This document shows positions 4,320-50,056 of a DNA stretch of 64,000 bases, piece after piece. Made by a program: the position numbers and the translations under genes. The notes under the pieces are model-generated. The model was not told where the DNA came from, ran no database searches, and was given only the letters and a program-made list of their open reading frames with translations. Each line of letters opens with the position of its first letter. Positions within the stretch are counted from its first letter, which is position 1. The DNA comes from Treponema primitia ZAS-2. Lineage in GTDB: Bacteria > Spirochaetota > Spirochaetia > Treponematales > Breznakiellaceae. The stretch covers positions 62,001 to 126,000 of the forward strand of contig NC_015578.1 of the NCBI RefSeq assembly GCF_000214375.1, given 5' to 3'.

Positions 4320-4384
4320 AATCCTACACAACGGACCTTGCAGCAAGCGAGGTTCCTGGGTGCAAATTTCCAAAATTTTACTGA

Positions 4385-4513: not shown

Positions 4514-4542
4514 GACTGCTCAGAGAAAGCGACATACCATAT

Positions 4543-4573: not shown

Positions 4574-4579
4574 AAACAT

Positions 4580-5217: not shown

Positions 5218-5264
5218 AATCGTTCTGACTTATGCAGAAAGTATCTATATCGTGGAAAGGTTGC

Positions 5265-6143
5265 TCAAGGGGTGATGCGCAGCTTTTCTTGTGAAAGGGA
5301 AATGAAAAAATCCTTGCTCCATAAGTCCAGTGGGCGGGTGTCCCTGATAAAAGGGAGCACATCGTTTTTTATCTGCTTATAATCAACCGATGAAAAGCGG
5401 TCTGTTAGCAAGCGGAGTATATCTTTTAGGGCGAGAGGCTCCGGCCCGGCCCAGTGCCCGCCCTGGCGTATGCCGGCTTCTAAGTACCGGCGATTGACCG
5501 GGATGCCCTTTGAAAGGTACCAGAGGTAGTCGTAAAAATCACGGCCCTTGGCGCGGGATTTCCAGGAGCGGTACAGGAGCGCGTGAAGTTTGCCCGCGAA
5601 AAGCGATGGAAGGTCAAAGAGCCGGACCGAATAGGGGATCGGCATAAGGCCATATTTGACTTCGTAGCCAGCGCCCGGGTAGGGGTTCGTATCAACTTCA
5701 AATTTGACCTTAATCAGTTCATTTGGGGGAACACCGGGAACCGGCGGGGTGATGGAACCTATCTTTAAAAGATGAAGCAGGGTTCCCCCTTTAATAAAGG
5801 CTGACTGAACGGCGGTGTCAGTCACCTTTTCTTTCGTTTCTACGGTCATGTCAAAACCGTATGATCCCAGCTCGTCCCAGACAGCGTTCAGATAGAGACC
5901 TAAGTCAAAGGATGAGTCCGGTTCCATAAGACTGAAATCCAGATCTTCGGAAAAACGGTCGAGCTGGTGAAAGATACGGAGGGCCGTTCCTCCATAGAAA
6001 GCAGCGTGGGTAAAAAAATGGGCGCGGTCAAGGGCTGCCAGGGTGATTTCCTGAATAATCTCCTTGAGGGCGTCCCGGCGTTCTTCGGTAGTAGTACAAT
6101 GGTACTGCTCAAACATTATTTGTACCGGTGATTTGGTGTTCAT
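5265..6143 (-). CDS. AbiEii-family nucleotidyltransferase toxin
   Basis: A 292-residue nucleotidyltransferase of the AbiEii/AbiGii type, the toxin of a type IV toxin-antitoxin and abortive-infection system. The nucleotidyltransferase signature is intact: GGTAL at residues 51-55, then SEDLDF at 65-70 with the paired acidic residues. The ATG at 6143 overlaps the stop of the upstream AbiEi gene by 4 nt, which fixes this start over a longer reading with extra residues. AbiE toxins are known to bind GTP and transfer nucleotides; the substrate here is not readable from sequence. It converges with the PIN toxin gene that ends at 5217. Confidence 0.88.
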   Translation of the reverse strand: MNTKSPVQIMFEQYHCTTTEERRDALKEIIQEITLAALDRAHFFTHAAFYGGTALRIFHQLDRFSEDLDFSLMEPDSSFDLGLYLNAVWDELGSYGFDMTVETKEKVTDTAVQSAFIKGGTLLHLLKIGSITPPVPGVPPNELIKVKFEVDTNPYPGAGYEVKYGLMPIPYSVRLFDLPSLFAGKLHALLYRSWKSRAKGRDFYDYLWYLSKGIPVNRRYLEAGIRQGGHWAGPEPLALKDILRLLTDRFSSVDYKQIKNDVLPFIRDTRPLDLWSKDFFISLSQEKLRITP

Positions 6144-6730
6144 TGGTATACTTCCTTGCCCAGCCAATCGGCCAGGGCCAGCAGTGATTTTCTGCGGTAG
6201 AGCGGAGCAATCCAGCGGATAAAGGCGCCATCCAGATTGCGGAGATCTTGGCGATCAATGCGCCAGTCCTCTAGGAGCAGGGACCCCATATCGTTCAGGG
6301 AAGTAATTAACGGATTTTTATAGACCATATCGCAGAGGGCCTTTTCCGGCGAAGCGATAAGATAGGGCAATCCCGCCTCTTCCCGCACGGTAATGCCATA
6401 GGGATACACCGTAGGGGGAAGATAGAAATACCGGAATTCCCCCAGAGGAGTGCGGAACACCTTGTCCTTGTTTTTATTGAAGCTTGCGGATGTTACCACC
6501 CGTACCCGTTCAGGGATAAGGCCTGCATTGGCCAGGGCGTACTGAAAGGAAATATAGGAAGGTCCGTAGAGCAGCGGGGCAATAGGCGGGTGGGGAGTTG
6601 CGGGATCGTCCACAAAGAGGCCTTTCCGCAACTGTACCAGGGCGCCGGCCTTTAAAAGCCGGGTAAGCCGCGCTTGGGGGGAAGCATAGCCTGCGAGTTC
6701 ATCCATAACCATCAAATGGGTCTTAATCAT
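6140..6730 (-). CDS. AbiEi-family antitoxin and transcriptional regulator
   Basis: Partner of the downstream nucleotidyltransferase. The 196-residue protein has an N-terminal winged-helix type segment (residues 1-50, ending LVQLRKGLFV) and a C-terminal AbiEi-like domain with SPEKALCDMVYK. In characterised AbiE systems the AbiEi protein binds inverted repeats in its promoter and represses the operon. The start at 6730 follows GGAG by 5-6 nt; a longer reading to 6823 lacks a ribosome-binding site. Two matching palindromes lie upstream (6798-6850). The stop overlaps the toxin start by 4 nt. Confidence 0.85.
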   Translation of the reverse strand: MIKTHLMVMDELAGYASPQARLTRLLKAGALVQLRKGLFVDDPATPHPPIAPLLYGPSYISFQYALANAGLIPERVRVVTSASFNKNKDKVFRTPLGEFRYFYLPPTVYPYGITVREEAGLPYLIASPEKALCDMVYKNPLITSLNDMGSLLLEDWRIDRQDLRNLDGAFIRWIAPLYRRKSLLALADWLGKEVYQ

Positions 6731-6749
6731 TGTATCTCCGGTAAGTACA

Positions 6750-6778
6750 AATATACGATACTTTCTGGAGATAAACAA
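6750..6778 (-). promoter_or_regulatory. Candidate promoter of the AbiE operon
   Basis: On the minus strand TTGTTT (complement 6773-6778) is followed after 17 nt by TATATT (complement 6750-6755), about 20 nt upstream of the AbiEi start codon. Its -35 begins some 20 nt downstream of the nearest palindrome. Confidence 0.45.
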
Positions 6779-6797
6779 GGGATAAAAACACAAAATT

Positions 6798-6850
6798 TCG
6801 ATATATCGAGAATATTCAAGCAATCACGAGAAAATCCTCGATATATCGAG
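6798..6850. promoter_or_regulatory. Two CGATATATCG palindromes, probable AbiEi operators
   Basis: TCGATATATCGAG occurs at 6798-6810 and again at 6838-6850, a direct repeat of a palindrome with centres 40 bp apart, close to four helical turns. The second copy extends to a perfect 14-bp palindrome (6837-6850). They sit between the divergent abiE and vapBC units. AbiEi proteins are known to bind paired repeats upstream of their own genes, so this is the expected place for them. Confidence 0.6.
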
Positions 6851-6881
6851 AAACCTAAAGAAATTGGCCAAGCTGCGGCCC

Positions 6882-6910
6882 TTGACTTTGTATACACACC
6901 TGTATATACT
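6882..6910 (+). promoter_or_regulatory. Promoter of the VapBC module with overlapping inverted repeat
   Basis: TTGACT (6882-6887), 17 nt, TATACT (6905-6910): a near-consensus sigma-70 promoter. TATACA (6891-6896) and TGTATA (6901-6906) form an inverted repeat with a 4-nt gap across the -10, a likely VapB/VapBC binding site. Confidence 0.65.
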
Positions 6911-6932
6911 AAATAATACAGGCGGTGGTACA

Positions 6933-7157
6933 ATGCAAATGACGAAGGTTTTTAAAAGCGGAAATAGCCAGGCAATACGTATTCCCAAGGAATATCAAGT
7001 TGATGAAGATGAGCTATGTATCAATAAAATTGGCAATACAATAGTCCTTTTCCCGAAAAATGATCCATGGGAATTATTTAAGAAAAGCCTAACTGAATTT
7101 TCAGATGATTTTCTTTTTGATGGGAGAAATCAACCTCCGATGCAGAAGCGTTTTTAG
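6933..7157 (+). CDS. vapB: VapB/VagC-type antitoxin (AbrB-like)
   Basis: A 74-residue antitoxin of the AbrB/SpoVT swapped-hairpin class. It starts MQMTKVFKSGNSQAIRIPKE, the classic VagC/VapB DNA-binding hairpin, and ends with an acidic and aromatic tail (residues 42-65) suited to toxin binding. The ATG at 6933 follows GGCGG; an upstream frame extension lacks homology. The stop is 4 nt before the toxin start. Distinct in family from the two Phd-type antitoxins, so the modules are not simple duplicates. Confidence 0.88.
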   Translation: MQMTKVFKSGNSQAIRIPKEYQVDEDELCINKIGNTIVLFPKNDPWELFKKSLTEFSDDFLFDGRNQPPMQKRF

Positions 7158-7161
7158 TATC

Positions 7162-7557
7162 GTGTATTTATTAGATACTAATATTTGCATTTATATAATT
7201 AATAAACGGCCGCAAAAGATCATAGAGAAAATTAGTCTGCATGAACCTGCAGAGATAAAAATATCGGCTGTATCAATAGCTGAAATGGAATATGGGGCTG
7301 CCAAAAGCGCCTATCCTGAAAAAAACAGAAATGCCTTACGGGATTTTTTAATATCATTTGAAATAATCCCTTTTGATCTTAAGGATGCAGAGATTTACGG
7401 AATAATACGAGCCGAGTTGGAACGGAATGGAGAAGTTATAGGTCCCTATGACATGCAGCTTGCTTCCCAGGCTTTAAGCCGGGATTATATTTTTGTAACA
7501 AATAATATTCAGGAATTCCAGAGAATTAAAAAACTTAAATTAGAGAATTGGGTATAA
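7162..7557 (+). CDS. vapC: VapC PIN-domain ribonuclease toxin
   Basis: A 131-residue PIN toxin starting at GTG (7162), which gives the canonical N-terminus MYLLDTNICIYI. Catalytic acidic residues are visible: Asp5, Glu41 in SIAEMEYG, and Asp97 in GPYDMQLA, with TNN near residue 114. Related VapC proteins cut initiator tRNA or the sarcin-ricin loop; which applies here is unknown. The start codon lies 4 nt after the vapB stop and must be translated by reinitiation or coupling, since no separate ribosome-binding site is evident. Longer readings upstream would overlap vapB. Confidence 0.88.
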   Translation: MYLLDTNICIYIINKRPQKIIEKISLHEPAEIKISAVSIAEMEYGAAKSAYPEKNRNALRDFLISFEIIPFDLKDAEIYGIIRAELERNGEVIGPYDMQLASQALSRDYIFVTNNIQEFQRIKKLKLENWV

Positions 7558-7852
7558 ACCGCAGAATCTTATTCAGGCCTCGGGTCTAACTTAAAAACGA
7601 CAAAGAAAATTCGAAAGGAATTGCCTGAATTAGTGATGTTTTTCCCGATGAAGAGCCTGATTTTCCTGATAAAATCGTCCCGGTTTATGCAGAATATGTC
7701 ATCCATATCTAGTGTTTCTCCTTAATGGATATAGTTTACTCGGTATATCGGGTAAATGAATATCCCATAAAAGACTATATGTTGACACATATTTATCATG
7801 ATTCAAATTGGTTAATAATAAAAGCAACAAAATAGAGTTGTGTGGAGTTTCT
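7558..7852. other. Intergenic stretch with possible decayed coding remnants
   Basis: Between vapC and uxs. A plus-strand frame ending near 7713 (ISDVFPDEEPDFPDKIVPVY) is interrupted by stops and looks like the tail of a decayed small gene. A minus-strand 45-codon frame (about 7705 to 7571) has AAGGAG upstream but no recognisable product. A TTGACA occurs at 7782-7787 without a convincing -10. Nothing here is certain. Confidence 0.3.
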
Positions 7853-8815
7853 ATGAGCAGGAAAGATCAGTATGCTCTTAATACCCGTGCGCTTGTTACA
7901 GGTGGGGCAGGATTTTTAGGTAGCCATCTGTGCGAACGATTAATCAAAGAAAAGTACGATGTTCTTTGTCTGGATAATTTTTTTACCGGGCAAAAACGTA
8001 ATATTGAGCATCTTATGGGGAATTCATATTTTGAGCTTGTTCGGCACGATGTAACGTTTCCCTATTACGCAGAGATTGACCAGATATATAATTTTGCCTG
8101 TCCCGCAAGCCCACCACATTACCAGTACGATCCGGTCCAGACAACCAAGACCAGTGTGCATGGAGCTATCAATATGCTGGGCTTGGCGAAACGTACCGGG
8201 GCGCGTATCCTCCAAGCATCGACCAGTGAAGTATATGGCGATCCGGTAGTACACCCACAAGTTGAATCTTACTGGGGGAATGTTAACCCCATCGGAATCC
8301 GGTCCTGCTATGACGAGGGGAAACGATGTGCTGAAACCCTGTTTTTTGATTATCACCGGCAGCATCAGGTTGAAATAAAAGTAGTCCGAATTTTTAATAC
8401 CTATGGGCCGCGTATGCATCCCAATGATGGCAGGGTTGTAAGCAATTTTATCATGCAGGCGCTCCGGGGAGATAACATAACGATATACGGTGATGGTAGT
8501 CAGACCCGGTCGTTTTGTTATGTGGATGATTTGATAGAAGCTATTGTCCAGATGATGAAGACGCCCGCAGACTTTACCGGCCCGGTAAACATTGGAAATC
8601 CCGGAGAATTCTCTATGCTGGAGCTTGCGGAGACCATTTTATCCCTCACCGGGAGCAAGTCCAAAATTATATATCAGCCACTACCATCGGATGATCCAAA
8701 GCAACGGAAACCTAATATCGCCTTGGCAAAAGAAAAGCTGAATTGGGAGCCAAAGATTCATTTGCGGGATGGATTAAAAGAGACGATTGCATATTTTGAG
8801 GGACAGATCAAATAA
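7853..8815 (+). CDS. uxs: UDP-glucuronate decarboxylase (UDP-xylose synthase)
   Basis: Extended short-chain dehydrogenase that converts UDP-glucuronate to UDP-xylose with NAD. The NAD-binding signature [11 protein letters not shown] lies at residues 15-25. STSEVYGDP and the catalytic YDEGK (Tyr-x3-Lys), together with [11 protein letters not shown] and [12 protein letters not shown], match bacterial UXS closely. The start at 7853 has GGAG 5 nt upstream; a TTG start at 7808 would add 15 residues. It is the first gene of the polysaccharide locus and supplies a nucleotide-sugar donor for it. Its codon use and GC resemble the chromosome rather than the AT-rich genes that follow. Confidence 0.92.
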
Positions 8816-8858
8816 CATATAATGTTAAATTTTGTAAAATTACGATGGCGGAAAATAA

Positions 8859-10220
8859 TTGCAAATTGATCGAAAAGATGTTTTGTGGAATTATGCTGCT
8901 ACATTCTTACAAATAGCAGCGCAACTTATACTTTTCCCATTTATTTTACGTATTTTACCTCAGGAAACAATAGCAATTTGGACTATTTTCTCAACAATTA
9001 TTATTTTAATTAATTTATTGGATTTTGGTTTTAATCCTTCATTTACTCGCAATGTAGCTTATGTGTTTAGCGGTGTAAAGGCTTTAAAGACAAATGGCTT
9101 TTCTGTTGTTGACACTGGGCAAACAACAGATGTTGACTATAAACTACTGAAAGACCTTATTACTGTCATGCGTTTATTTTATTCATGCGTATCAGTAATT
9201 CTTTTTTTTATTCTAACCACAATAGGAACATATTATATTTATACTGTTCTAAAAACATATATCGGTAACCAAACTGAAGTATATATAGCTTGGTTTATAT
9301 TGTGCTGCATAAATGCTTACTCCTTCTTTACCCTCTATTATGATTCCCTCTTACAAGGAAGAGGTTTAATAAAACGGTCAAAACAAATAGGGATTATAGG
9401 GCAGTCTTCATACTTGATTGTTGCAATAATTTTAATATTATCAGGATTTGGCCTTATTGCTATTGTTAGCGCACAGGCGGTATCAATTATCATTCGGAGA
9501 GTTTTATCGTATAATTCATTTTATACTGCGGATATCAGGCTTAATTTACATAATATAGTTAATCAAACACAGCGAGGTATTCTGAAGGCAATTTATCCGA
9601 ATGCGATTAAAATTGGTATAAATAGTATAGGTGGCTTTTTGATTAATAGATCGCCTGTAGTTATTGGATCGCTTTATCTATCGCTGGATTTCATTGCTTC
9701 TTATGGTATAACGACACAGATTATTGGAGTTATTTCGTCATTGGCGAGTGTTTATTTTTCAACTTACTTGGTACAAATAATGCACTATCGAGTACAGAAT
9801 AATATGGATGAAATAAAACATATCTATTTCAAGAGTTGCTTGTTATTCCTTATTATGTATATTTTTGGTGGACTGGTTCTTATATTTTTGGGTAATTTTA
9901 TGTTAGATATAATAATTAAAAGCAAGACACCTCTTTTGTCACAACGATTTATTATTATATTATTGATTTCAGGTTTATTGGAAGCAAATACGAGTATTGC
10001 TGGTAATATATTGCTTACAAAAAATGAAGTTCCATTTTTTAAAGCGGGACTGATTTCTGGAATTTGTATATTAATTCTACTTCTTGCTCTTTTTAAATAT
10101 ACTAATTTAGGAGTATGGAGCATAATTTTTGCGCCTTGTGTTGTACAGTGTTGTTACTCATATTGGAAATGGCCTTTGAAGGCATATAGAGAATTAAACG
10201 TTAGTCAAGTGAGACATTAG
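8859..10220 (+). CDS. wzx: Wzx-type polysaccharide flippase
   Basis: Integral membrane protein of 453 residues with about 12-14 hydrophobic helices along its whole length, typical of the MATE/Wzx superfamily that flips lipid-linked repeat units across the inner membrane. The N-terminal RKDVLWNYAATFLQIAAQL and the early LLDFGFNPSFTRNVAY segment fit O-antigen flippases. The best start is TTG at 8859, with GGCGGA about 6 nt upstream; an ATG at 8845 is out of frame. It ends directly against the next gene. The sequence becomes sharply AT-rich from here. Confidence 0.85.
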   Translation: MQIDRKDVLWNYAATFLQIAAQLILFPFILRILPQETIAIWTIFSTIIILINLLDFGFNPSFTRNVAYVFSGVKALKTNGFSVVDTGQTTDVDYKLLKDLITVMRLFYSCVSVILFFILTTIGTYYIYTVLKTYIGNQTEVYIAWFILCCINAYSFFTLYYDSLLQGRGLIKRSKQIGIIGQSSYLIVAIILILSGFGLIAIVSAQAVSIIIRRVLSYNSFYTADIRLNLHNIVNQTQRGILKAIYPNAIKIGINSIGGFLINRSPVVIGSLYLSLDFIASYGITTQIIGVISSLASVYFSTYLVQIMHYRVQNNMDEIKHIYFKSCLLFLIMYIFGGLVLIFLGNFMLDIIIKSKTPLLSQRFIIILLISGLLEANTSIAGNILLTKNEVPFFKAGLISGICILILLLALFKYTNLGVWSIIFAPCVVQCCYSYWKWPLKAYRELNVSQVRH

Positions 10221-11042
10221 ATGAAAAAAAAAATAATTACTGCTATGCGAATCATTTATAGTAAAATAAATAAAGATATATTTTATTTTAAAGAATTCGG
10301 CTTAAAAAATTTACTTCGTGCAAAGGGTCGCCATGTTGCTTTTCCCTGTTTGATAGAGGTAAAGCGGACAGATTGCAAGTATCCATTTTGGCTTAGAGAA
10401 CCCTCAACAGATGTTTCTATGTATTCACAAATATTTATTAATTTCGAGTATGATTTTGCCATAGAGAAAGAACCGGAAGTAATTATTGATGCAGGAGCAA
10501 ATATAGGGTTAGCTTCTATTTATTTTGCAAATAAATACCGACAGGCTAAAATTATTGCTATAGAACCGGAAAAGAATAATTTTGAGTTATTGCTAAAAAA
10601 TACAGCACAATATACAAACATTATACCTATTCAAGCAGCATTATGGAATTTGGATGGTAAAATTGATATATTGGATTCAGGATTGGGTGAATGTGGATAT
10701 ATGGCTTCAGATAAAAGTATAAATACGGTTTTAAAAACACCATCTGTGCGCTATGTTCAACAGGTTACATCAGTTACAATAAAAAAAATTGTTAAAGAAT
10801 ATCAATTAGACAGAATTGATATTCTTAAAATGGATATAGAGGGATCTGAAAAAGAAGTTTTCAGTAATTCTGTTGAATGGATAGATAAAGTAAAATCAAT
10901 TATTATTGAATTACATGAATATATGAAAAGTGGATGCAATAGGATATTTTATAATTACACAAACGACTTTGATAATGAATGGCAACAGGGAGAAAATGTT
11001 TTCTTATCAAAAGGTCATTATCTTAAAAAGATTTCCAGGTAA
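10221..11042 (+). CDS. FkbM-family methyltransferase
   Basis: SAM-dependent methyltransferase of the FkbM type, probably O-methylating a sugar hydroxyl of the surface polysaccharide. The SAM-binding motif EVIIDAGANIGLASIYF starts near residue 85, followed by IIAIEPEKNN, and the later DILKMDIEGSEKEV is the second family hallmark. The ATG follows the flippase stop with no gap. Unlike the two methyltransferase frames at 11096 and 16488 this one is intact. Confidence 0.88.
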   Translation: MKKKIITAMRIIYSKINKDIFYFKEFGLKNLLRAKGRHVAFPCLIEVKRTDCKYPFWLREPSTDVSMYSQIFINFEYDFAIEKEPEVIIDAGANIGLASIYFANKYRQAKIIAIEPEKNNFELLLKNTAQYTNIIPIQAALWNLDGKIDILDSGLGECGYMASDKSINTVLKTPSVRYVQQVTSVTIKKIVKEYQLDRIDILKMDIEGSEKEVFSNSVEWIDKVKSIIIELHEYMKSGCNRIFYNYTNDFDNEWQQGENVFLSKGHYLKKISR

Positions 11043-11095
11043 ATAATATGCTATTAGTTTTAATTATAGATGGCATAGGATGATTAATATAAAAA

Positions 11096-11990
11096 ATGAT
11101 GTTGGGTATATTCACAAGATTATTTAAAAAGAATTGGCCAAACATTTATCGACGCATAAAATTAATAAAGGCGTCCGGTAAAGGGGATGCGCTTATTCCG
11201 GATTATCCAATTGAACATTTTTATTCTCCATTTGCAACAATGAATGAGATAAAGGAATATGAAAGCTATTTACCGCTTGAAATTCAAGGCATTGATTTAA
11301 ATGATAAAGTTCAATTAGAATTATTATCTATATTTGATTCATTTTATAGGGAATTACCTTTCAGGGATGAAAAGACCGAAGGATTAAGATATTATTTTAA
11401 AAATGATCATTATTCTTATTCTGATGCTATATTTACGATATTTGAAACCACAAAAGTTAATAGAAGTTGGTTCTGGTTTTTCATCCTGTGTGACCCTGAA
11501 TGCCAATGAAATATATTTCAAAAATAAATTTTATTGTACCTTTATTGAGCCATTTCCTGATAGATTAAAATCATTGACAGGGGATTCATCCGATATAGAA
11601 ATACTTGAATTAAAATTACAGGATATTCCATTAAAATTATTTACGCAATTAGGGGAAAATGGCATTTAATTTATTGATTCAACGCATGTTTCCAAATTTA
11701 ATAGCGATGTAAATTATATTATTCATAACATATTGTCTTTACTGCAAAAAGGTGTGTATATCCACTTCCACGATATATTTTATCCATTTGAATATCCAAA
11801 AGAATGGCTGCTTGAGGGAAGAGCATGGAATGAACAATATATATTAAGGGCCTTCTTGGAATATAATAGCAATTTTAAAATAGTACTATTTAATACATAT
11901 TTAGAATTGATGTATGAAAAAGAATTAGTGGAAAAGTTTCCCCAAATTTATAAGCAAACTGGTGGAAGTCTTTGGATAAAAAAAATATAA
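11096..11990 (+). pseudogene. Decayed class I SAM methyltransferase (one frameshift, one nonsense codon)
   Basis: Three consecutive pieces of one methyltransferase. The first frame runs from ATG 11096 and loses homology near 11430. The continuation in the next frame carries the SAM motif LIEVGSGFSSCV and runs to an in-frame TAA at 11667-11669. The same frame then resumes with IDSTHVSKF and HFHDIFYPFEYP up to 11990. Restoring one frameshift and one sense codon would give about 298 residues. With two separate lesions, true decay is more likely than sequencing error. It lies between the FkbM gene and a glycosyltransferase. Confidence 0.8.
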
Positions 11991-12015
11991 AATTAGTTTT
12001 AAAAAGAAAATCAGT

Positions 12016-13029
12016 ATGCCATTAGTATCGGTTATAATGCCTGTCTATAATGCTGAAATATTTGTCAGAGAAACTATAGACAGTATTTTAAATCAAACAT
12101 TTCATGATTTTGAATTTATTATTATTGATGATGCCAGCAGTGATTCTTCGCCGGATATTATCAAATCTTATAATGATCCGAGAATTAGATTTTATAAAAA
12201 TGAAAAAAATATTGGTTATGTCGCCAATCTTAATAGAATGATTGATTTGGCGCAGGGTAAATTTATTGCCCGCCAAGATAATGATGATATCTCACATCCT
12301 GACAGATTAAAAAAACAAGTTGCTTTTTTGCAAAAATATGAAAATGTAGGCGTTTGCGGATCCTATGTACAATTAATAGGTACAAAGAAAGGATTATTTA
12401 AACGACCTATAAGAGATAAGGATATCCGGGCAAGGCTTTTGTTTTTTTGTCCTATGGTGCATCCTTCTGTGATGATGAGGGCATCCCTTTTTAAACAGGG
12501 AATAAAATATGACGAGGAATTAAGTCCAGCTGAAGACTATAACCTGTGGTTTGAAATATCAAAAATGACAAAAATAGCAAATATACCAAGGGTATTACTG
12601 TATTATAGATTGCACGATAATAGTGTAAGTAACTTAAAGCAAGATATTCAAACAAATATAAGCGATGCTATTAGACATAAAATAATAGAATACTCATTAT
12701 CAATTAGACTGACTGAGGAAGAAAAACGTGTTCATGATCTAGTTGTACGCCCACATACTATTAGTTATAACGACTTAATTTTATTGCAAGAATGGTTGAT
12801 GCATCTTCAAGCGTTAAGTATTAAAAGCAATTATTATAATACAAAGGCTGTAAAGAATGCAATTTTTGAAGCCTGGTCTGGTGTTTGCAGAAATAACAGT
12901 ATAATAAATCCGTTTCAAATGTTATGTTTTTATTATAATTCTACTTTTTTTAATATGCATAAAATATTTATAATTCAATCTCTTAAAACAACAATAAAAA
13001 TACTATTTAAGATGGTAAAAAATATATGA
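12016..13029 (+). CDS. Family 2 glycosyltransferase
   Basis: GT-A fold inverting glycosyltransferase of 337 residues. The N-terminus reads SVIMPVYNAEIFVRETI, followed by IIIDDASSDSS and the metal-binding RQDNDDISHPDR, then a conserved acceptor-site segment (ELSPAEDYNLW). It would add one sugar to the lipid-linked repeat unit at the cytoplasmic face of the inner membrane. The last 60 residues are basic and hydrophobic, consistent with membrane association. The stop overlaps the next start by 4 nt. Donor sugar cannot be inferred. Confidence 0.9.
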   Translation: MPLVSVIMPVYNAEIFVRETIDSILNQTFHDFEFIIIDDASSDSSPDIIKSYNDPRIRFYKNEKNIGYVANLNRMIDLAQGKFIARQDNDDISHPDRLKKQVAFLQKYENVGVCGSYVQLIGTKKGLFKRPIRDKDIRARLLFFCPMVHPSVMMRASLFKQGIKYDEELSPAEDYNLWFEISKMTKIANIPRVLLYYRLHDNSVSNLKQDIQTNISDAIRHKIIEYSLSIRLTEEEKRVHDLVVRPHTISYNDLILLQEWLMHLQALSIKSNYYNTKAVKNAIFEAWSGVCRNNSIINPFQMLCFYYNSTFFNMHKIFIIQSLKTTIKILFKMVKNI

Positions 13030-13928
13030 AAAAGAAGATATATATTGCTGGTTGTGGTGGAATGTTAGGGGAGGCTTTTTATGGGCAATACAAGGATAAG
13101 TATACTCTTAAATGTACTGATAAGGATGTAAATGCCAACTGGCTCAGTTTCCTTGATTTTCGTGATTTAAAGGAATATCGAAACCAAGTCAAAGAATTTG
13201 CGCCCGATTATCTGTTTCATTTAGGTGCTTATACTGATTTAGAATTTTGTGAAAAAAACCCGGAAGACACCTATGCAACTAATACTATATCGGTTGAAAA
13301 TGCAGTATATATTGCCAATGAATTGAATATTCCTCTTTTGTATATTTCAACTGCGGGTATTTTTGACGGCAAAAAAGATTTGTATGATGATTGGGATGTG
13401 CCTAATCCCCTTGGTGTATATGCCCGTTCAAAATATATAGGGGAACGATTTGTAGTAGAAAACGCAAACCGTTTTTTGGTTTGTCGTGCAGGTTGGATGA
13501 TGGGTGCAGGTCCAGGCAAGGATAAAAAATTTATTCAAAAGCTGATGAAACAGTTAAAAGATGGCAAAAAAGAACTTTTTATTGTAAATGATAAAGATGG
13601 AACCCCCACATATACTCATGACTTTGCAAAAAATGTAATGCTTTTGCTGGAAAATGAATATTGGGGATTGTATAATATGGTTTGTGGAGGACAAACAAGT
13701 CGCTATGATGTTGCTGTAGAGCTTTTAAAAATATTGAATTTAAATGATGTTGTCAAGTTAACCGCCGTTTCTTCTGATTATTTTAAAGAAACGTATTTTG
13801 CTGCTAGACCGCCGTCGGAACGCCTTTTAAATCAAAAATTAAATATTCGCAATATTAATGTAATGCGAGATTGGCGTATTGCCTTAAAGGAATATGTAAA
13901 TATTTATTATAAAGATTATTTATTCTAA
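13026..13928 (+). CDS. RmlD-like NAD(P)-dependent sugar nucleotide reductase
   Basis: Extended SDR of the dTDP-4-dehydrorhamnose reductase family, 300 residues. The dinucleotide-binding loop is GCGGMLG near residues 9-15, followed by APDYLFHLGAYTDLEFCE and ISTAGIFDGKK, with the catalytic YARSK (Tyr-x3-Lys). These are RmlD-type motifs, but rmlA, rmlB and rmlC are not nearby. It may reduce another 4-keto sugar nucleotide, or rhamnose precursors may be made from genes elsewhere. The ATG overlaps the preceding stop by 4 nt. Confidence 0.82.
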   Translation: MKKKIYIAGCGGMLGEAFYGQYKDKYTLKCTDKDVNANWLSFLDFRDLKEYRNQVKEFAPDYLFHLGAYTDLEFCEKNPEDTYATNTISVENAVYIANELNIPLLYISTAGIFDGKKDLYDDWDVPNPLGVYARSKYIGERFVVENANRFLVCRAGWMMGAGPGKDKKFIQKLMKQLKDGKKELFIVNDKDGTPTYTHDFAKNVMLLLENEYWGLYNMVCGGQTSRYDVAVELLKILNLNDVVKLTAVSSDYFKETYFAARPPSERLLNQKLNIRNINVMRDWRIALKEYVNIYYKDYLF

Positions 13929-42530: not shown

Positions 42531-43418
42531 TTATTTTTTCAGATATCCTTGCCGGTCCGCCTCGCCGGCAATGTGCATTTCTTCCAGCCTTTCCATGATC
42601 GTATCCACCACGGCTTGCTTCTTGTCCTCTACCCCGGCAGCTTCGGCTACGGCCCGGGCGGCACTGCGGAATTCGGCGCAGGAGAGGACCGGCCCTGCGG
42701 TGTAGCGCACCACATCTTCGCTGACGAAATCATCCATCATGTCACCCGGGCTGACGTGGAGGACTTCTCCATTTATGGCTACCATGCACATATATTCAAA
42801 GGATTTTATATAGGAATCAATTTCCCGGACACCCTTCTTGGTTTGGGGATCCCAGGGCCGGTACCGGGTTCCGGAAGGGAAGACCAGGATCAGTTTGCCC
42901 TTCACCTTAATATCGCTCAAGGCTTTCATGGCGGCCCGGTTGATGCCGTTACTGCGGACTAGTTCGGCCCGGTCCTTTACAGGGTCCAGGTGGGACAGTG
43001 AACGGCTGGGATAAATGACCAGCCGGGTATGGGCGCCGGTGAAGGCCGCCACCACCGGGTTTTCTTCGTTAAGCTTGATCCCCGCAATGGCTACCAGGGC
43101 ATCGGCGATGGCTTTGCCCGGGTCCGGTTCCTTCTGTAAAAGATAATGGAAGGCTGACAGATCCATATTGCTGTAATGTTCCACAAAGAGGAGGCAGGAA
43201 TGGCCGGCGTTGGCCTTTTCCAGCAGTTCCTTCAGGTGCTCAAAGCCGGAGATACCCGAACCGGGCAGGACCAGGGTTTCCACCATCTTATGCAGAAAGG
43301 GCAGGACATTCTGGTCCCCTTCCTGGTAGACATCCTGTTCGGTCACCACCGTAGAGACTTTTGAAAGCCGTACCGCTTTCTGTATTTGTTCCTTGAATTT
43401 CCCGCTTAGTGTTTCCAT
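42531..43418 (-). CDS. Glycerol-phosphate/lysophosphatidate-type acyltransferase
   Basis: A 295-residue PlsB/PlsC-superfamily acyltransferase. The catalytic HX4D motif is in FVEHYSNMD near residues 82-88, and LVFPSGTRYRPWDP corresponds to the substrate-binding block that follows in glycerol-3-phosphate acyltransferases. No membrane helix is obvious. The start at 43418 is set by GGGGAGAAG and overlaps the peptidase T stop codon by one base (TAATG). It probably uses the acyl-CoA made by the neighbouring synthetase. Confidence 0.85.
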   Translation of the reverse strand: METLSGKFKEQIQKAVRLSKVSTVVTEQDVYQEGDQNVLPFLHKMVETLVLPGSGISGFEHLKELLEKANAGHSCLLFVEHYSNMDLSAFHYLLQKEPDPGKAIADALVAIAGIKLNEENPVVAAFTGAHTRLVIYPSRSLSHLDPVKDRAELVRSNGINRAAMKALSDIKVKGKLILVFPSGTRYRPWDPQTKKGVREIDSYIKSFEYMCMVAINGEVLHVSPGDMMDDFVSEDVVRYTAGPVLSCAEFRSAARAVAEAAGVEDKKQAVVDTIMERLEEMHIAGEADRQGYLKK

Positions 43419-44680
43419 TATACTTCTCCCCAGCTCCGTATTAGTTCGATCACCAGTTTGCAAGCCGCGATCATCTCGGAGACCGCCGCCCATTCGGTGC
43501 GGCTGTGCCAGTTCCGGCCCCCGGTAAAGATATTGGGGGTGGGTATCCCCAGCTCTGTAAGCCGTGAACCATCGGTGCCGCCCCGTATAGGCTTAAGATA
43601 GGATTCGATTCCCAGATTAGAGGCTGCTTTTTGAAGTATTTCCAGCACTTCCGGCCGGGCGTCAATTTTTTTCTTCATGTTAAGATACTGGAGATCCGTA
43701 TTCATAGTGATTGACCCTCCGGGGAACTGGGCCTGTACTGCAGGTAAAAAAGATTCCAGAGCCGCAATCCGCCGCTCTATGCCGGATTGTTCAAAGTCCC
43801 GGATATTAATTTTCAGGGAAGCGCTTTCCGGATTGCCTGTAATTTCCATGGGGTAGTAGTAACCGTAATAGCCATCGGTAGCTTCCGGGCTCTCCGACCG
43901 GGGGAGCATAGTGGCGAAGGAAGCCGCCATGAGGACTGCATTGGCCATGATCCCCCGGGCATAGCCGGGATGTATGGCCTTCCCTTGAAAATTAACCGTT
44001 GTGACATAGGCGTTAAAACATTCAAGCTCAAGCTCACCCCAGGGGCCGCCATCCAGGGTATAGCAGGCAGCAGATTTGATGCGCTCCAGGGGAAATTCCG
44101 GAAGGCCCTTGCCGGTTTCTTCGTCCGGGGTAAAGATAATTTCCACCGGCCCGTGGGGAATCTCCGGGTGGGAAAGGAGCCATTCCAGGGCGCCCATAAT
44201 TTCCGCAATGCCCGCCTTGTCATCCGCCCCCAGGAGGGTGGAGCCGTCGGTGTGAATAATGGCCTTCCCCTTCTGAGCGGCAAGGGAGGTGTCCTCTTTT
44301 GGGTCAAGAACATTGGTGCCGGTTAGTTGTATTTTTTGCCCATCGTAGTTTTTAACCAATTGGGGCTTAACATCCTTGCCCGAGACATCCGAGGCGGTAT
44401 CCAGGTGGGCCAAAAATCCCACAGTCTGTCGGGATTCCCTGCCCGGGCTGGGGGGCAGCCGGGCTATGACATAGCAATGATCCGTTAGGTCTACGTCCGT
44501 AAGCCCAAGACCCCGCAGTTCTTCAGCCAGGGCTTTTGCCAGGTCCCATTGGCCGGGGGTAGAAGGGGTTTCCTTAACATTGGGATCGCTGGTGGTCCAG
44601 TACCGGACATATTTCAGAAAACGGGGTATCACCAGCTCCGAGAGCCGGGAATCGTCGATATCGCTGATTTTGGTAGCCAT
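43418..44680 (-). CDS. pepT: Peptidase T (tripeptide aminopeptidase)
   Basis: M20 family zinc aminopeptidase of 420 residues releasing the N-terminal residue of tripeptides in the cytoplasm. Metal-binding motifs are VGFLAHLDT near residue 88, LLGADDKAG and FTPDEETGKG; the C-terminal RGGTDGSRLT and NIFTGGRNWHSRTEW are PepT hallmarks. ATG 44680 gives the usual N-terminus; an ATG six codons upstream is possible, and neither has a good ribosome-binding site. Translation of the acyltransferase gene is coupled to its stop. Confidence 0.92.
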   Translation of the reverse strand: MATKISDIDDSRLSELVIPRFLKYVRYWTTSDPNVKETPSTPGQWDLAKALAEELRGLGLTDVDLTDHCYVIARLPPSPGRESRQTVGFLAHLDTASDVSGKDVKPQLVKNYDGQKIQLTGTNVLDPKEDTSLAAQKGKAIIHTDGSTLLGADDKAGIAEIMGALEWLLSHPEIPHGPVEIIFTPDEETGKGLPEFPLERIKSAACYTLDGGPWGELELECFNAYVTTVNFQGKAIHPGYARGIMANAVLMAASFATMLPRSESPEATDGYYGYYYPMEITGNPESASLKINIRDFEQSGIERRIAALESFLPAVQAQFPGGSITMNTDLQYLNMKKKIDARPEVLEILQKAASNLGIESYLKPIRGGTDGSRLTELGIPTPNIFTGGRNWHSRTEWAAVSEMIAACKLVIELIRSWGEV

Positions 44681-44691
44681 AGGGGGGTAGT

Positions 44692-44713
44692 ATACCATTC
44701 ACGGGAATGGTAT
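44692..44713. promoter_or_regulatory. Inverted repeat at the pepT start
   Basis: ATACCATTC (44692-44700) and GAATGGTAT (44705-44713) are perfect 9-bp arms around ACGG. The repeat lies at the pepT translation start, so it could be an operator or an mRNA hairpin hiding the start. Confidence 0.4.
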
Positions 44714-44945: not shown

Positions 44946-45845
44946 ATGCCTAGACAAAGGGCGATAAAAATTCAGTCAAAAGGCCTCAATATGAGTTTTG
45001 TGCTGAGACCTCAAAAAAAAGGCAAAATTGGTGGACCGGATCTGCCAGGGAGTTTTATCGCACTGAAGGATGTGAATCTTGAGGTCCTGGAAGGCGAATT
45101 TATGGTACTGGTGGGACCCAGCGGATGTGGAAAGACTACTTTTTTGCACTTGCTGGGAGGACTGGAAAGAGCAACCGGCGGTGCCATTTATATCGACGGT
45201 AAACCCATAAACGGGCCTGGGCTTGACCGGGGTATAGTGTTTCAACAATATGCCCTCCTGCCATGGAAAACAGCTTTGGGAAATGTAGAATTCGGCCTGG
45301 AAGTTAAAAAGGTAGCTAAAAAGGAACGAATAGCAATTGCAAAACGTTACCTTACCTTGGTGGGGTTAGATGGTTTTGAGGATAGGTATCCCCACGAACT
45401 TTCAGGTGGAATGAAGCAGCGGGTCGCTATTGCCCGGAGCCTGGCCTATGACCCGGATATACTCCTCATGGATGAACCTTTTGCGGCTCTGGACGCACAG
45501 ACTCGCGAAACCCTGCAGGATGAATTGTTACGCATTTGGGAAACTACCGGAAAAACTATCGTGTTTATAACCCATTCTATTGATGAAGCGGTCTATCTGG
45601 GACAACGGGTAGCAATAATGACAAGTAAACCAGGGAGAATCAAGCAGGTTGTAGATATATCATTACCCTCTTCACGGCAGGATATTGACGATTTGCGGTC
45701 GGACCCTGAATTTGTACGGATTCGGCATATAGTTTGGGAATTATTGCGAGAGGAAGTTAAAAAAGCTCAAAGTGAGAAGATCCAAAAGGGGCTGGAAAAA
45801 AATAATGGAATAGATCTTACGGTCAACTTGAAAGAGGTTGTTTAA
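44946..45845 (+). CDS. ABC transporter ATP-binding protein (nitrate/taurine type)
   Basis: A 299-residue ATPase of the NrtD/SsuB/TauB group. Walker A is GPSGCGKTT near residue 55, the Q-loop FQQYALLPWKTA is characteristic of this group, the signature is LSGGMKQR, Walker B is ILLMDEP, and the H-loop is in FITHSIDEA. The extra N-terminal 25 residues are not conserved. GGGAG precedes the ATG. It energises import through the permease encoded directly after it. First gene of a five-gene operon ending with a radical SAM enzyme and a flavin-type protein. Confidence 0.93.
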   Translation: MPRQRAIKIQSKGLNMSFVLRPQKKGKIGGPDLPGSFIALKDVNLEVLEGEFMVLVGPSGCGKTTFLHLLGGLERATGGAIYIDGKPINGPGLDRGIVFQQYALLPWKTALGNVEFGLEVKKVAKKERIAIAKRYLTLVGLDGFEDRYPHELSGGMKQRVAIARSLAYDPDILLMDEPFAALDAQTRETLQDELLRIWETTGKTIVFITHSIDEAVYLGQRVAIMTSKPGRIKQVVDISLPSSRQDIDDLRSDPEFVRIRHIVWELLREEVKKAQSEKIQKGLEKNNGIDLTVNLKEVV

Positions 45846-45846
45846 A

Positions 45847-46683
45847 ATGAGTGAAATAATCCTGGAAGCGGTCACAGACAAGTGTGATAACAAGGTGGGA
45901 AGTATAAAAAAAAATATTGATCCCTTTGTGTGGGTTATTATAAAAAGGATACTCCTCTTAAGCTTATTAATAAGCGCTTGGGAGATTGCACCCCGTAAGG
46001 ACTGGGTAGATCATACCTTCCTCCCTCCCTTGTCCTTGATCCTAGCTGAATTTAAAAAAATGATAATGTCAGGAGCCCTTTGGCGCCATGTATCTATCAG
46101 CCTTTTTAGATCAATTGCAGGTTTTTCCATAGCCATAGGAATTGGGATACCTCTGGGACTGGTTATAGGCTGGTATAAAACCATGTCTGATCTGCTTACC
46201 CTACCCATTGAGGTATTCAGAAATACCTCTGCCCTGGCGATGTTACCTGTTTTTATGTTATTTATGGGGATAGGAGAGGCGTCCAAGTTTACCATTGTAG
46301 CCTTTGCCTGTCTCTGGCCTATTATCTTGAATACCATCAGTGGAATAAAAAATGTGGATCCTCTGCTCATCATGCTGGCCAGATCCATGGGACTGACCAA
46401 TGCGGTTATGTTTCGAAAAATCATCATACCTGCGGCTATACCCTCCATATTTACAGGGCTGCGGATTTCATCTGCAGCGGCAGTGTTGGTGATTATCGCC
46501 GCCGAAATGGTGGGCGCTAAATCCGGTTTGGGCTATCTCATCACCAATGCTCAATACAGTTTCATGATACCCCGGATGTACGTTGGGATTCTTACCACCA
46601 TGATATTGGGAGTATCAATAAATTATCTGATTTTAGGAATCGAAAACAAATTTACCTCATGGAAACCAAAATCTAGTCCATAA
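45847..46683 (+). CDS. ABC transporter permease (nitrate/sulfonate/taurine type)
   Basis: A 278-residue inner-membrane permease with about six helices. The cytoplasmic EAA loop reads ARSMGLTNAVMFRKIIIPAAIP, and AWEIAPRKDWVDHTFLPP near the N-terminus is typical of the SsuC/TauC group. The ATG at 45847 has GAGG 9 nt upstream; a TTG at 45838 would overlap the ATPase stop. Only one permease is encoded, so it would act as a homodimer. Confidence 0.92.
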   Translation: MSEIILEAVTDKCDNKVGSIKKNIDPFVWVIIKRILLLSLLISAWEIAPRKDWVDHTFLPPLSLILAEFKKMIMSGALWRHVSISLFRSIAGFSIAIGIGIPLGLVIGWYKTMSDLLTLPIEVFRNTSALAMLPVFMLFMGIGEASKFTIVAFACLWPIILNTISGIKNVDPLLIMLARSMGLTNAVMFRKIIIPAAIPSIFTGLRISSAAAVLVIIAAEMVGAKSGLGYLITNAQYSFMIPRMYVGILTTMILGVSINYLILGIENKFTSWKPKSSP

Positions 46684-46748
46684 AGGATAGTCCTAAACTG
46701 TTAAAAGACAGTTATGACATATATTTTTCAAAAGGAGAAAACAGAATA

Positions 46749-47810
46749 ATGGTTTTTAGGAAACAAATAGGAATCTACTTAGCAGGTATGGCCTCAGTTT
46801 TTTTCGTTCTTGGATGCGGAAATAGCGGAACCAATAAACCGGCGGTCAATACACAAAACGCTGCTGTAGACCAGTATGAGACGCTTGAAATAAGGTACCA
46901 GGGAAGCCCTGGTATGGTACAGCCCTTTGAGTTGGCCGAAGATCTTGGGTACCTGGAACCTTTAAAGCTGGTTTATGTTGGGAGTGGCGGCGGTGGGCCG
47001 CAGTCTTTGCAGACTCTACAAACAAATCAAATCGATCTTGGTGGGTCCCACATGACCGGAATTATTAACTTGCTTGCATCGGAGGCTGATCCCGCTAATG
47101 GAAAATTGATAAGCATCATTGGTTCCCTTGGCAGTGATGAAAAGACGACCACTGGTTTATATGCTTTGGAAAGCAGCGGTATCCGAACCCCACGGGATCT
47201 TATCGGCAAGATAATAGGTTTAAATAGTTTCGGCGCCGCATCTGAGGCTTTTATCAAAAAATATCTTACTAACGGAGGACTTAGCCCTGCGGAGATAGAA
47301 CAGGTACAGCTTGTACTTGTCCCTGCCATGAATGCTGAACAGGCCCTGCGCTCAAAACAAATTCATGGGGCTACCCTGAACGGACAAACAAAAGAAAAAG
47401 CGGTAGCCGGCGGCGGGCTTTGGGAATTGAGCACCGATGTGGCAACCTTTGGGCCCACGGTTTCCAATATCAGTACCGTTACCAAAGAATTTGCAAAGAA
47501 TAATCCTAATACAACCAGAAAACTGGTAGAGGGCATAGCGACGGCTATAGAATGGTCCAAGAATAACCCACTGGATGTGGTTGTTGCCCGGTTGAGGAAC
47601 ATTATGGAAAAAAGAAATCGGGAGGAGGATCCGGCTGTAATGAATTATTGGAAGGGTTTTGGCATTGCCAGCGAGGGGGGGCTCATGTCTGAGCAGGATG
47701 CTCAGTTGTGGATAGACTGGCTCGTGACTTTGGGAAATGTAAAGGAGGGGCAAATAAAACCTGCCCACTTGTTTACCAATGAATATAATCCCTATTACAA
47801 GGGCAAATAA
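46749..47810 (+). CDS. NMT1/TauA-like ABC substrate-binding lipoprotein
   Basis: A 353-residue binding protein with a lipoprotein signal ending FVLGC (Cys23). Family features of the NMT1/THI5/SsuA group follow: LEIRYQGSPGMVQPFELAEDLGYLEPLKLVYVG, then QTLQTNQIDLGGSH, and GKIIGLNSFGAASEAFIKKYL. Relatives bind sulfonates, nitrate, thiamine precursors, riboflavin or aromatic compounds, so the ligand cannot be read from family alone. It probably binds the substrate of the radical SAM enzyme encoded 14 nt further on. AAAGGAG lies upstream of the start. Confidence 0.9.
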   Translation: MVFRKQIGIYLAGMASVFFVLGCGNSGTNKPAVNTQNAAVDQYETLEIRYQGSPGMVQPFELAEDLGYLEPLKLVYVGSGGGGPQSLQTLQTNQIDLGGSHMTGIINLLASEADPANGKLISIIGSLGSDEKTTTGLYALESSGIRTPRDLIGKIIGLNSFGAASEAFIKKYLTNGGLSPAEIEQVQLVLVPAMNAEQALRSKQIHGATLNGQTKEKAVAGGGLWELSTDVATFGPTVSNISTVTKEFAKNNPNTTRKLVEGIATAIEWSKNNPLDVVVARLRNIMEKRNREEDPAVMNYWKGFGIASEGGLMSEQDAQLWIDWLVTLGNVKEGQIKPAHLFTNEYNPYYKGK

Positions 47811-47824
47811 ACAAAGGAGAAAAA

Positions 47825-49102
47825 ATGAATTTAGAAAATGCAAGTTCTGTTTTGAAGGATACCGCTGAACGTTTTCAGGATATTCCGCCGACCATTTTAT
47901 TCAAAACCGATGCTTCCCTGCGGGGGATCAGGGCGACCGATAGTGCGGAGGTGTTGGCGCTAAAAAATGGCTATCTCTTTGAGACTACAAATGGAGGAAA
48001 GAAAAAATACATCCTTGATGGATTTTTTACCAGCGATGGATTGAATCTTGAAAAGCCGAGATTCCCCGGAGAAAGTTCCCAGTCGAAGGATCAGGATATA
48101 CGCCTTGAAGGCAGTTCCCCCTATGTCCTAGATACAATTGATGATCAGTTTTGGATCTTTGAAAACAATAAACCGGTAGAACAGGTATTTCTTTCCAGTT
48201 ATGCAGAATATTATGGAAAAAAAACCAGTCGCGGAACCCCTATGGAAGAGGTGGTTTCCGTCGTTCCCAATGGCTGCCTTACGGTTGATGTCTATGGATA
48301 TTGTCATTTTTGGAAAGAGGGAATTCCCTGTAAGTATTGCAGTTTGGTTGGGGATTATATTAAGGGTGGTTCAAAACAAACAGAAGAAAGTTTGCAGGAT
48401 ATAACGGAGACCATAACAGAAGCGCTGAAAGAAAAAGGCCGTTGGCAGGGATTCCGGGTTACCGCAGGGTCCGATCCCAGGGGAGAAACACCCTATGATT
48501 ATGAGGCCGATGAATACCTCAAGGTTATGGGAGCGATAGAAAGGGGAGCTGGTACCAAAGATCTTAACTGCCGGCTTGTGGTAAGCGCTCTGGGTAAAGA
48601 ACATTGGAAAAAACTCAAAGCCGCAGGGGTATCCGCAGTGGAGCCTCACCTTGAGGTATGGGATCGAAAAATGTTTGCTGAAATTTGTCCGGGAAAGAAT
48701 AAATACAACGGGTATGATTATTGGTGGGATAGCGCCCTTAATGCGGTGGAAATATATGGAAGGGGCAATGTATGTAATCAAGTGGTAGGGGGCGCTGAAT
48801 TGGCAAAACCCTATGGATTTAAAACTATTGAAGAGGGTCTGGAATCTACCTTGACGGGTGCCGAAATTATGGCCCAGCATGGGGTTAGTACTACCCTCTG
48901 TGTATTATGGGTCCGAAAGCCATCGGTGTTTTATCGGGAAGGGCAGACTCCTCCGTCATTGGAATATTATGCCCGCCTTACCAGGGGTTTATATGAACTG
49001 CGTAAAAAATATCATATCCCGGTTGGTTTTAATGATTATCGTCGTTGCGGTCATGTGGATTCTTCCCTTAGCCGTCTTGATTACCCCTACATAACTGTTT
49101 AA
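47825..49102 (+). CDS. Radical SAM protein with an expanded cysteine motif
   Basis: A 425-residue protein. The probable [4Fe-4S] site is around residues 151-172, where cysteines follow the pattern C-x8-C-x8-C-x2-C (Cys151, Cys160, Cys169, Cys172); the last pair, CKYC, has the aromatic residue typical of radical SAM enzymes. Downstream, GFRVTAGSDPRG, VSALGKEHWKKLKAAGVSAVEPHLEVWD and VCNQVVGGAEL fit the beta strands of a partial TIM barrel. The first 130 residues match nothing I recognise. AAGGAG precedes the ATG. Reaction unknown; context points to processing of the imported compound with the flavin-type protein next door. Confidence 0.82.
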   Translation: MNLENASSVLKDTAERFQDIPPTILFKTDASLRGIRATDSAEVLALKNGYLFETTNGGKKKYILDGFFTSDGLNLEKPRFPGESSQSKDQDIRLEGSSPYVLDTIDDQFWIFENNKPVEQVFLSSYAEYYGKKTSRGTPMEEVVSVVPNGCLTVDVYGYCHFWKEGIPCKYCSLVGDYIKGGSKQTEESLQDITETITEALKEKGRWQGFRVTAGSDPRGETPYDYEADEYLKVMGAIERGAGTKDLNCRLVVSALGKEHWKKLKAAGVSAVEPHLEVWDRKMFAEICPGKNKYNGYDYWWDSALNAVEIYGRGNVCNQVVGGAELAKPYGFKTIEEGLESTLTGAEIMAQHGVSTTLCVLWVRKPSVFYREGQTPPSLEYYARLTRGLYELRKKYHIPVGFNDYRRCGHVDSSLSRLDYPYITV

Positions 49103-49116
49103 GGAGTTTTATAAAA

Positions 49117-49602
49117 ATGAGTATATTGACACGGGAAATTATTGATCTGATTCAAAGTGACAAATCGATCAAAATAATAGCCACCACTGATGAACAGGGG
49201 AGTCCCCATGCGGTTGCGAGAGAGGATTTTCTGGTATTGGATGATGGTCTTATTGTATTTGCGGAATGGCGGGAATCTTCCCGTACAAACAGTAATTTGG
49301 TCCGGGCTATTTATTTTGGCAATTATGTATCTTTGTCGGTCTTTAATGACCGGGGACATTCCTTCCAGATTAAGGTAAAGCCTGTTCGTTTTGATTTTTA
49401 TAGCCCCCTGTTTAAGCAGTTTTTTGCAGCCATAAGGAAAAAACGCGGAGATGATTCGGATATTACCGGACTATGGTACCTGGCTCCGGTTGATATTAGA
49501 AATGAAAACCCGGAGATTCGGAAGAAAGAAGAAGATGTTTTACATCCCCATTTCCGATATCTGGACCGATCAAGTATCAGGCCGGGGGTGAATTCCTTGT
49601 AA
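49117..49602 (+). CDS. Pyridoxamine-phosphate-oxidase-like (FMN split-barrel) protein
   Basis: A 161-residue protein of the PNPOx-like split-barrel superfamily, usually binding FMN or F420. The N-terminal strands IKIIATTDEQGSPHAVAREDFLVLDDGLIVFAEW follow the family pattern (small-molecule-binding beta barrel), with a later FQIKVKPVRFDFYS strand. It is shorter than true PdxH and lacks its C-terminal motif, so it is unlikely to make pyridoxal phosphate. It starts 14 nt after the radical SAM gene and closes the operon, suggesting a redox partner or a second enzymatic step. Confidence 0.75.
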   Translation: MSILTREIIDLIQSDKSIKIIATTDEQGSPHAVAREDFLVLDDGLIVFAEWRESSRTNSNLVRAIYFGNYVSLSVFNDRGHSFQIKVKPVRFDFYSPLFKQFFAAIRKKRGDDSDITGLWYLAPVDIRNENPEIRKKEEDVLHPHFRYLDRSSIRPGVNSL

Positions 49603-49616
49603 ATCAAGTACTGTAA

Positions 49617-49712
49617 CCAATCGGCCAAATTCTCAATATAGGGGAAAATTCCATTCTGGATGATGATATACAACAGGCCCAATCGGCCCTGTTTGCCGGG
49701 GAAGACTGGTAA
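49617..49712 (+). pseudogene. C-terminal remnant of a MazE-type antitoxin
   Basis: An open frame of 31 codons with no start codon, preceded in frame by TAA (49614-49616). It reads IGQILNIGENSILDDDIQQA and ends SALFAGEDW, the typical acidic tail of antitoxins paired with MazF/PemK toxins. Its stop overlaps the toxin ATG by one base (TAATG), as in intact pairs. The DNA-binding half is missing. Confidence 0.65.
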
Positions 49713-50056
49713 TGGTTCGGGGTGAAATCTGGTGGACGGAATTGCCGCCGCCCAGGGGATCGGAGCCGGCAAAACGGCGGCCTGTTCTGGTTATCCAGGG
49801 GGACACCTATAACCGCAGCGCCCTTAGTACGGTAATTTGCGCAGTCCTTACTTCAAACCTGGAACTTGCCAAGGCGCCCCCAAATTTTCTATTGGAGAAG
49901 GCTGTTTCCGGTCTGGAAAAAACATCTGCTATTAATTTTTCCCAGATTTTCACGATTGATAAATCCTATCTTTTAGAACAGGTTTCCATGCTTCCCAAAA
50001 GTGTTATGGAAAAAATCAATGCGGGGATAAAGCAGATATTTGAACTTCCGGAATAA
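49712..50056 (+). CDS. MazF/PemK-family endoribonuclease toxin
   Basis: A 114-residue toxin. It starts MVRGEIWWTELPPPRGSEPAKRRPVLVIQ, the canonical MazF N-terminus including the RRPVLV strand, and keeps TVICAVLTSN and SAINFSQIFTIDKSYL. It should cleave mRNA at short motifs. The antitoxin upstream is reduced to its C-terminal tail, so the gene is either silent, inactive, or controlled by an antitoxin from another locus. It converges with tsaD. Confidence 0.86.
   Translation: MVRGEIWWTELPPPRGSEPAKRRPVLVIQGDTYNRSALSTVICAVLTSNLELAKAPPNFLLEKAVSGLEKTSAINFSQIFTIDKSYLLEQVSMLPKSVMEKINAGIKQIFELPE

Follow-up and report, generated by a model that had tools for sequence, protein, structure and literature searches.

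Treponema primitia ZAS-2, a spirochaete of the termite gut, carries in the 64,000-nucleotide stretch analysed here (the window, numbered from its first nucleotide) an operon in which an ATP-binding cassette (ABC) importer is followed by an unusual radical S-adenosylmethionine (SAM) enzyme and a PNPOx-like, predicted flavin mononucleotide (FMN)-type split-barrel protein (Table 1). The open-reading-frame coordinates bear out the layout described in the initial annotation, five genes on one strand with gaps of 1–65 nt: the order is ATPase, permease, substrate-binding protein (SBP), radical SAM protein and PNPOx-like protein, all on the forward strand and separated by 1, 65, 14 and 14 nt. The permease is read from an ATG at 45847, with a TTG at 45838 as the alternative start.

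Table 1. Genes of the operon, with the evidence used to assign each
Gene product	Position in the window	Strand	Basis of assignment
ABC importer ATPase (TauB/SsuB/NtrCD type)	44946-45845	+	PF00005; NCBIfam best TauB
ABC importer permease (SsuC/TauC type)	45847-46683	+	PF00528; NCBIfam best SsuC
NMT1/SsuA-type substrate-binding lipoprotein	46749-47810	+	PF09084; SsuA_fam; closest relative L082 SBP
Variant radical SAM enzyme	47825-49102	+	NF045502; CX8CX2C; AlphaFold2 model
FMN-type split-barrel (PNPOx-like) protein	49117-49602	+	AlphaFold2 model, Foldseek

The importer is predicted to be of the SsuABC/TauABC/NrtABC kind. Its ABC_tran, BPD_transp_1 and NMT1 domains all exceed their Pfam cut-offs (51.9 bits for the SBP against PF09084, cut-off 20.5), and none of the three subunits reaches the SsuABC/TauABC equivalog or subfamily cut-offs, the ATPase scoring 255 bits against NCBIfam TauB (equivalog cut-off 357) and the permease 143 bits against SsuC (cut-off 347). 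The closest relative found for the SBP, at 45% identity, is that of locus L082, in a Family XIII metagenome-assembled genome (MAG).

The radical SAM protein falls under the Pfam Radical SAM cut-off (26.6 bits, cut-off 29.5) and is a distant member of the NCBIfam family NF045502, ‘variant_rSAM’ (180 bits, curated cut-off 125). Its cluster motif is CX8CX2C (Cys160, Cys169 and Cys172); across 121 homologues the first spacing is X8 in 90 and X9-10 in 23, the pattern being unmatched in the other eight, and a CPGK motif (Cys288) is invariant across a 59-sequence radical SAM alignment. The AlphaFold2 model (predicted local distance difference test, pLDDT, 91.7) was placed by Foldseek in the radical SAM fold of the PDB, grouped with lipoyl synthase, biotin synthase, ThiH and HydG. 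Assignment to the MSMEG_0568 family (TIGR04043) was set aside; the protein scores 43.5 bits, far under the cut-off of 303.7. A literature search for the CX8CX2C radical SAM family found no paper describing it.

The split-barrel protein scores 16.7 bits against Pfam PNPOx_N, under the cut-off of 28.1 that its relative from locus L069 reaches (28.2 bits). Its AlphaFold2 model (pLDDT 93.4) matches HupZ (E 2.5e-07), the Desulfovibrio FMN-binding protein and the prenyl-FMN maturase PhdC in the PDB, with HutZ at rank 39, and we predict with high confidence that the last operon gene encodes an FMN-type split barrel. GxPH, ESSxTN and HLDR motifs are conserved, the family assembled around it has 59 members, and the protein is predicted to bind FMN.

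The radical SAM/split-barrel pairing is not accidental. Scanning genome contigs with a three-row alignment gave 70 loci, one of which duplicates L014, leaving 69 (a scan with a single sequence found no relatives); the census of these loci used profiles built in this analysis, and sampling is uneven, with termite-gut MAGs providing many of the loci. At 54 of the 69 loci the radical SAM gene has a split-barrel gene no more than 1.5 kb away, at 48 an SBP or permease gene within 6 kb, and at 35 both; all 60 split-barrel genes examined are on the strand of the radical SAM gene, at a median gap of 3 nt. In a tree of 121 radical SAM proteins, with origins in at least 11 phyla, the partner-bearing proteins form one clade of 80 (SH-aLRT support 90; 100 for 79 of them), 62 of which have a split-barrel partner within 1.5 kb. 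Only one of the 41 proteins outside it, L100_7193, has a partner, and that split-barrel gene sits between L100_7193 and a clade member. The recurrence that the initial annotation proposed to look for is thus found across at least 11 phyla; the unrelated contexts that it named as counter-evidence occur only for homologues in other clades of the superfamily and, in part, among importer-less members of the window protein's own subclade.

The other groups in the tree are Leptospira-type singletons and paralogues linked to nitrogenase-like (NFL) genes or to genes of other transporters. The singletons (L018–L046) are single-copy radical SAM proteins of ~440 aa from Leptospira-type spirochaetes, of the same superfamily, with no transporter or split-barrel gene nearby; as they form a separate clade without a split-barrel gene, we did not use them for functional interpretation. 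Paralogue clusters include three tandem NF045502 radical SAM genes interspersed with four SsuA-like SBPs, an ATPase and a permease, with arylsulfotransferases coming next, in the window genome (L012, 7038-16622), and another three in tandem adjoining an Opp/Dpp-like transporter (L013, 8292-17908). In seven Campylobacterota loci (L053, L055, L058, L060, L063, L087 and L088) a threonine synthase gene lies immediately 3′ of the radical SAM gene, and a second radical SAM copy in one genome (L139, G339:C66:170557-171615) is interrupted by one in-frame TGA, which may reflect a frameshift, decay or recoding. The plasmid collection yielded only MSMEG_0568-type and other distant radical SAM proteins.

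Sulfur genes recur around the module, that is, the pair with its importer, in the relatives. SsuD adjoins it in Campylobacterota (L061, 544 bits, equivalog cut-off 518), with profile matches also at L067, L068, L078, L104 and L110, and the L068 SBP, beside SsuD, exceeds the SsuA_fam cut-off; TauD/TfdA-family genes adjoin it in Myxococcota (L065, L066 and L081). Methionine adenosyltransferase (MetK) is no more than ~1.3 kb from the radical SAM gene at seven loci, mostly in Bacillota, and at ~5 kb in L093, and since MetK adjoins the module in relatives, SAM as a consumed co-substrate would fit. A MetY-type (O-acetylhomoserine) sulfhydrylase and an AsrC-like siroheme sulfite reductase are found at L069, L082 and L103, and ThiF is also among the sulfur-assimilation genes near the module; in L082, MetY, radical SAM, PNPOx and ABC genes form one cluster, with the sulfite reductase 7.5 kb away. 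G340 (L069, a Pseudobutyrivibrio MAG) and G344 (L082) both have a sulfite reductase in or near the module cluster; the sulfate-reduction families PF01507 and PF01747 were detected in neither, nor was the nitrogenase-like PF00148 in G340, which suggests that their sulfite comes from an organic source. Taken together, the neighbouring genes point to sulfonate sulfur as the probable target of the module.

A related anaerobic system is known from Rhodobacter capsulatus, in which genetics showed that use of isethionate sulfur requires the nitrogenase-like IsrHDK, the radical SAM protein IsrB and SsuCAB (Morimoto et al., PMC11423573); IsrBHDK was presented there as the third oxygen-independent desulfurising enzyme, after Xsc and IslAB. 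The genome of the window also has NFL genes, at 28.5-32.2 kb of the chromosome. Their K subunit has Cys12/37/100 and the relevant part of D just one conserved cysteine (76), which match the Isr cysteines Cys12/37/99 and Cys74 (PMC11423573). The NFL genes stand in what is apparently an Isr plus assimilatory sulfate reduction locus (L129, chromosome 20.5-40 kb), where positions 3751-13657 hold a sulfate-type ABC importer, PAPS reductase, CysD, CysN, NFL HDK with Isr-type cysteines, ThiF and a sulfite reductase. L016 and L017 combine a radical SAM protein, an SsuABC-type importer and NFL genes, adjoining CysDN/PAPS reductase genes. The NFL-linked radical SAM proteins score ~450 bits against NF045502 (450 in L016; the window protein 180), and in the tree they represent the IsrB-type clade, R. 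capsulatus IsrB itself being absent from it. The proteins with a split-barrel partner form a clade distinct from them, and since both kinds match NF045502, it appears that a single superfamily comprises an IsrB-like and a window-type branch.

NFL HDK genes are absent from the window operon and from most relatives; only two of the 69 loci, L086 and L100, have them near the module. As for INDEPENDENCE from NFL, G340 and G342 hold the module and no PF00148 protein was found in either, in a search that was positive in four control genomes. As these two genomes lack a detected PF00148 protein and NFL genes are nearby in just two of 69 loci, the pair can probably do without a nitrogenase-like enzyme. 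Among 337 genomes from a single class around G339, the search for IsrB-like proteins gave no match, which is uninformative. Two further loci have nitrogenase-like genes: L130 (8897-12368) has a 733-aa reading frame that starts like a nitrogenase iron protein and apparently continues as NifD-like, an adjoining NifK-like gene, and flanks of apparent corrinoid-salvage genes on one side and an iron/B12-type ABC importer on the other; L131 (7912-11396) has an additional nitrogenase-like H-D-K set.

We consider it somewhat probable (about 0.58) that the operon is an oxygen-independent, nitrogenase-like-independent module for sulfonate uptake and desulfonation in sulfur assimilation. The initial annotation left the cargo open between sulfonates, vitamin precursors and aromatics; the neighbours favour sulfonates. 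All the comparative evidence agrees with its suggestion that the radical SAM enzyme acts on the imported compound and that the flavin-type protein supplies electrons or a second step. The SsuABC/TauABC-like importer would take up an organosulfonate; SAM bound at the CX8CX2C [4Fe-4S] cluster would be reductively cleaved to a 5′-deoxyadenosyl radical, which would abstract a hydrogen adjacent to the sulfonate group, whereupon the C–S bond could break by beta-scission or elimination and expel sulfite. The FMN-type split-barrel protein may balance the reaction by giving one electron, either to the cluster or to the sulfite radical as it leaves, or may accept one, and the cell's siroheme sulfite reductase would reduce the sulfite for assimilation. 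Alternatively, radical oxidation might turn the sulfonate into a labile carbonyl species, FMN acting as electron acceptor. We hold less firmly, as a tentative proposal, that the two proteins form by themselves a desulfonase independent of O2 and of nitrogenase-like partners, in which the CX8CX2C radical SAM enzyme itself cleaves the sulfonate C–S bond and the FMN split-barrel protein is its dedicated electron partner; this desulfonase would be the anaerobic equivalent of SsuED/TauD and would span at least 11 phyla.

Several observations weigh against the sulfonate module. The window SBP scores 45.8 bits against SsuA_fam, well under the cut-off of 163.5, and is a diverged NMT1 protein. Within the 13-member subclade of the window's radical SAM protein, only the window and L047 (60%) have the importer; the other nearest relatives by that protein, from Nitrospirota, Elusimicrobiota and Chloroflexota, have the radical SAM and PNPOx genes with no SsuABC/TauABC-type importer nearby, and these importer-less copies are without obvious sulfur genes, their neighbours being ResB, LuxE-like and others. 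As such neighbours say little about sulfur, the substrate class is less certain for the window operon than across the whole family. Riboswitch scans of the operon and eight loci found none at threshold. The gene absences noted for G340 and other relatives come from MAGs, which are possibly incomplete. Gene content, predicted folds, the recurrent radical SAM/split-barrel pair and the sulfur genes around relatives are observed here; substrate class, C–S cleavage, FMN binding and the direction of electron flow are inferred.

The substrate might instead be another sulfur compound (a sulfate ester, sulfone or thioether) yielding sulfate, sulfinate or thiol, since SsuABC-type importers transport varied organosulfur and arylsulfotransferases flank the paralogue cluster L012; we regard this as unlikely, as the SsuD and TauD neighbours are both sulfite-releasing and sulfite reductase adjoins. 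Slightly less likely is a reading that keeps sulfur scavenging and makes the pair an in-trans accessory of the chromosomal IsrHDK, acting as IsrB does: the window genome has the IsrHDK-type genes with their conserved K and D cysteines, and the module adjoins NFL genes in L086 and L100, but these are the only two such loci, no PF00148 protein was found in the module-bearing genomes G340 and G342, and the radical SAM proteins of NFL clusters fall in a different clade.

More doubtful again is that an NMT1-type importer takes up a vitamin precursor or an aromatic compound for radical SAM conversion, with sulfur not involved. The window SBP is indeed a Pfam NMT1 protein under the SsuA cut-off, and no obvious sulfur genes accompany the subclade members that lack the importer; yet no thiamin or aromatic genes were seen at the examined loci, and the nearest relative of the window SBP (L082) is accompanied by MetY and a sulfite reductase. 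Anaerobic haem utilisation, with the pair matched to HutW (radical SAM) and HutZ/HupZ (split barrel), is very improbable and was set aside: although the split barrel is closest in fold to HupZ and FMN-binding proteins among PDB entries, HutW and ChuW are HemN-type CX3CX2C proteins, unlike the CX8CX2C protein here, the importer is of the SsuABC/TauABC rather than the haem type, and no haem genes were seen at the examined loci.

The operon is bounded by a divergent PepT-like gene upstream (43418-44698) and a separate PemK-like gene downstream, which starts at 49712. The interval 49603-50056 holds this PemK/MazF-like gene, preceded by possibly just the end of an antitoxin frame. Promoter and terminator scans performed no better than chance.

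The ways in which anaerobes release sulfonate sulfur for assimilation are only partly known. If the sulfonate module is real, the radical SAM/flavin pair, widespread and accompanied by a sulfonate-type importer, would add an oxygen-independent route and would explain the sulfite reductases of gut anaerobes without sulfate reduction genes; if the radical SAM enzyme acts without a nitrogenase-like partner, IsrB too may have a catalytic role and not that of an activator.

Among known families, the radical SAM protein shares its score and CX8CX2C motif with NF045502, a generic domain model with no assigned function, and only a wider superfamily with MSMEG_0568, whose gene neighbours were not seen in the operon. 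The isethionate sulfite-lyase IslAB performs radical C–S cleavage with release of sulfite, as proposed for the window pair, but IslA is a glycyl radical enzyme (PMC6386719), for which the window operon has no gene. A literature search for radical SAM, PNPOx and sulfonate together found no paper, in keeping with the initial annotation that no pathway with this exact combination was described; what it missed is the close relative IsrBHDK with SsuCAB (PMC11423573). Both systems have an SsuABC-type importer and a radical SAM protein, IsrB apparently belonging with the NFL-linked ones of L016 and L017 to the NF045502 superfamily, and anaerobic use of sulfonate sulfur is demonstrated there and predicted here; unlike it, the window locus has no HDK genes, its partner is an FMN-type split barrel, and its radical SAM protein belongs to a separate clade. 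SsuED and TauD likely perform the same task as the window pair, yielding sulfite from sulfonates after SsuABC or TauABC import, and their genes (SsuD or TauD) adjoin the module in some relatives, but they require O2, whereas the window pair is predicted to be O2-independent.

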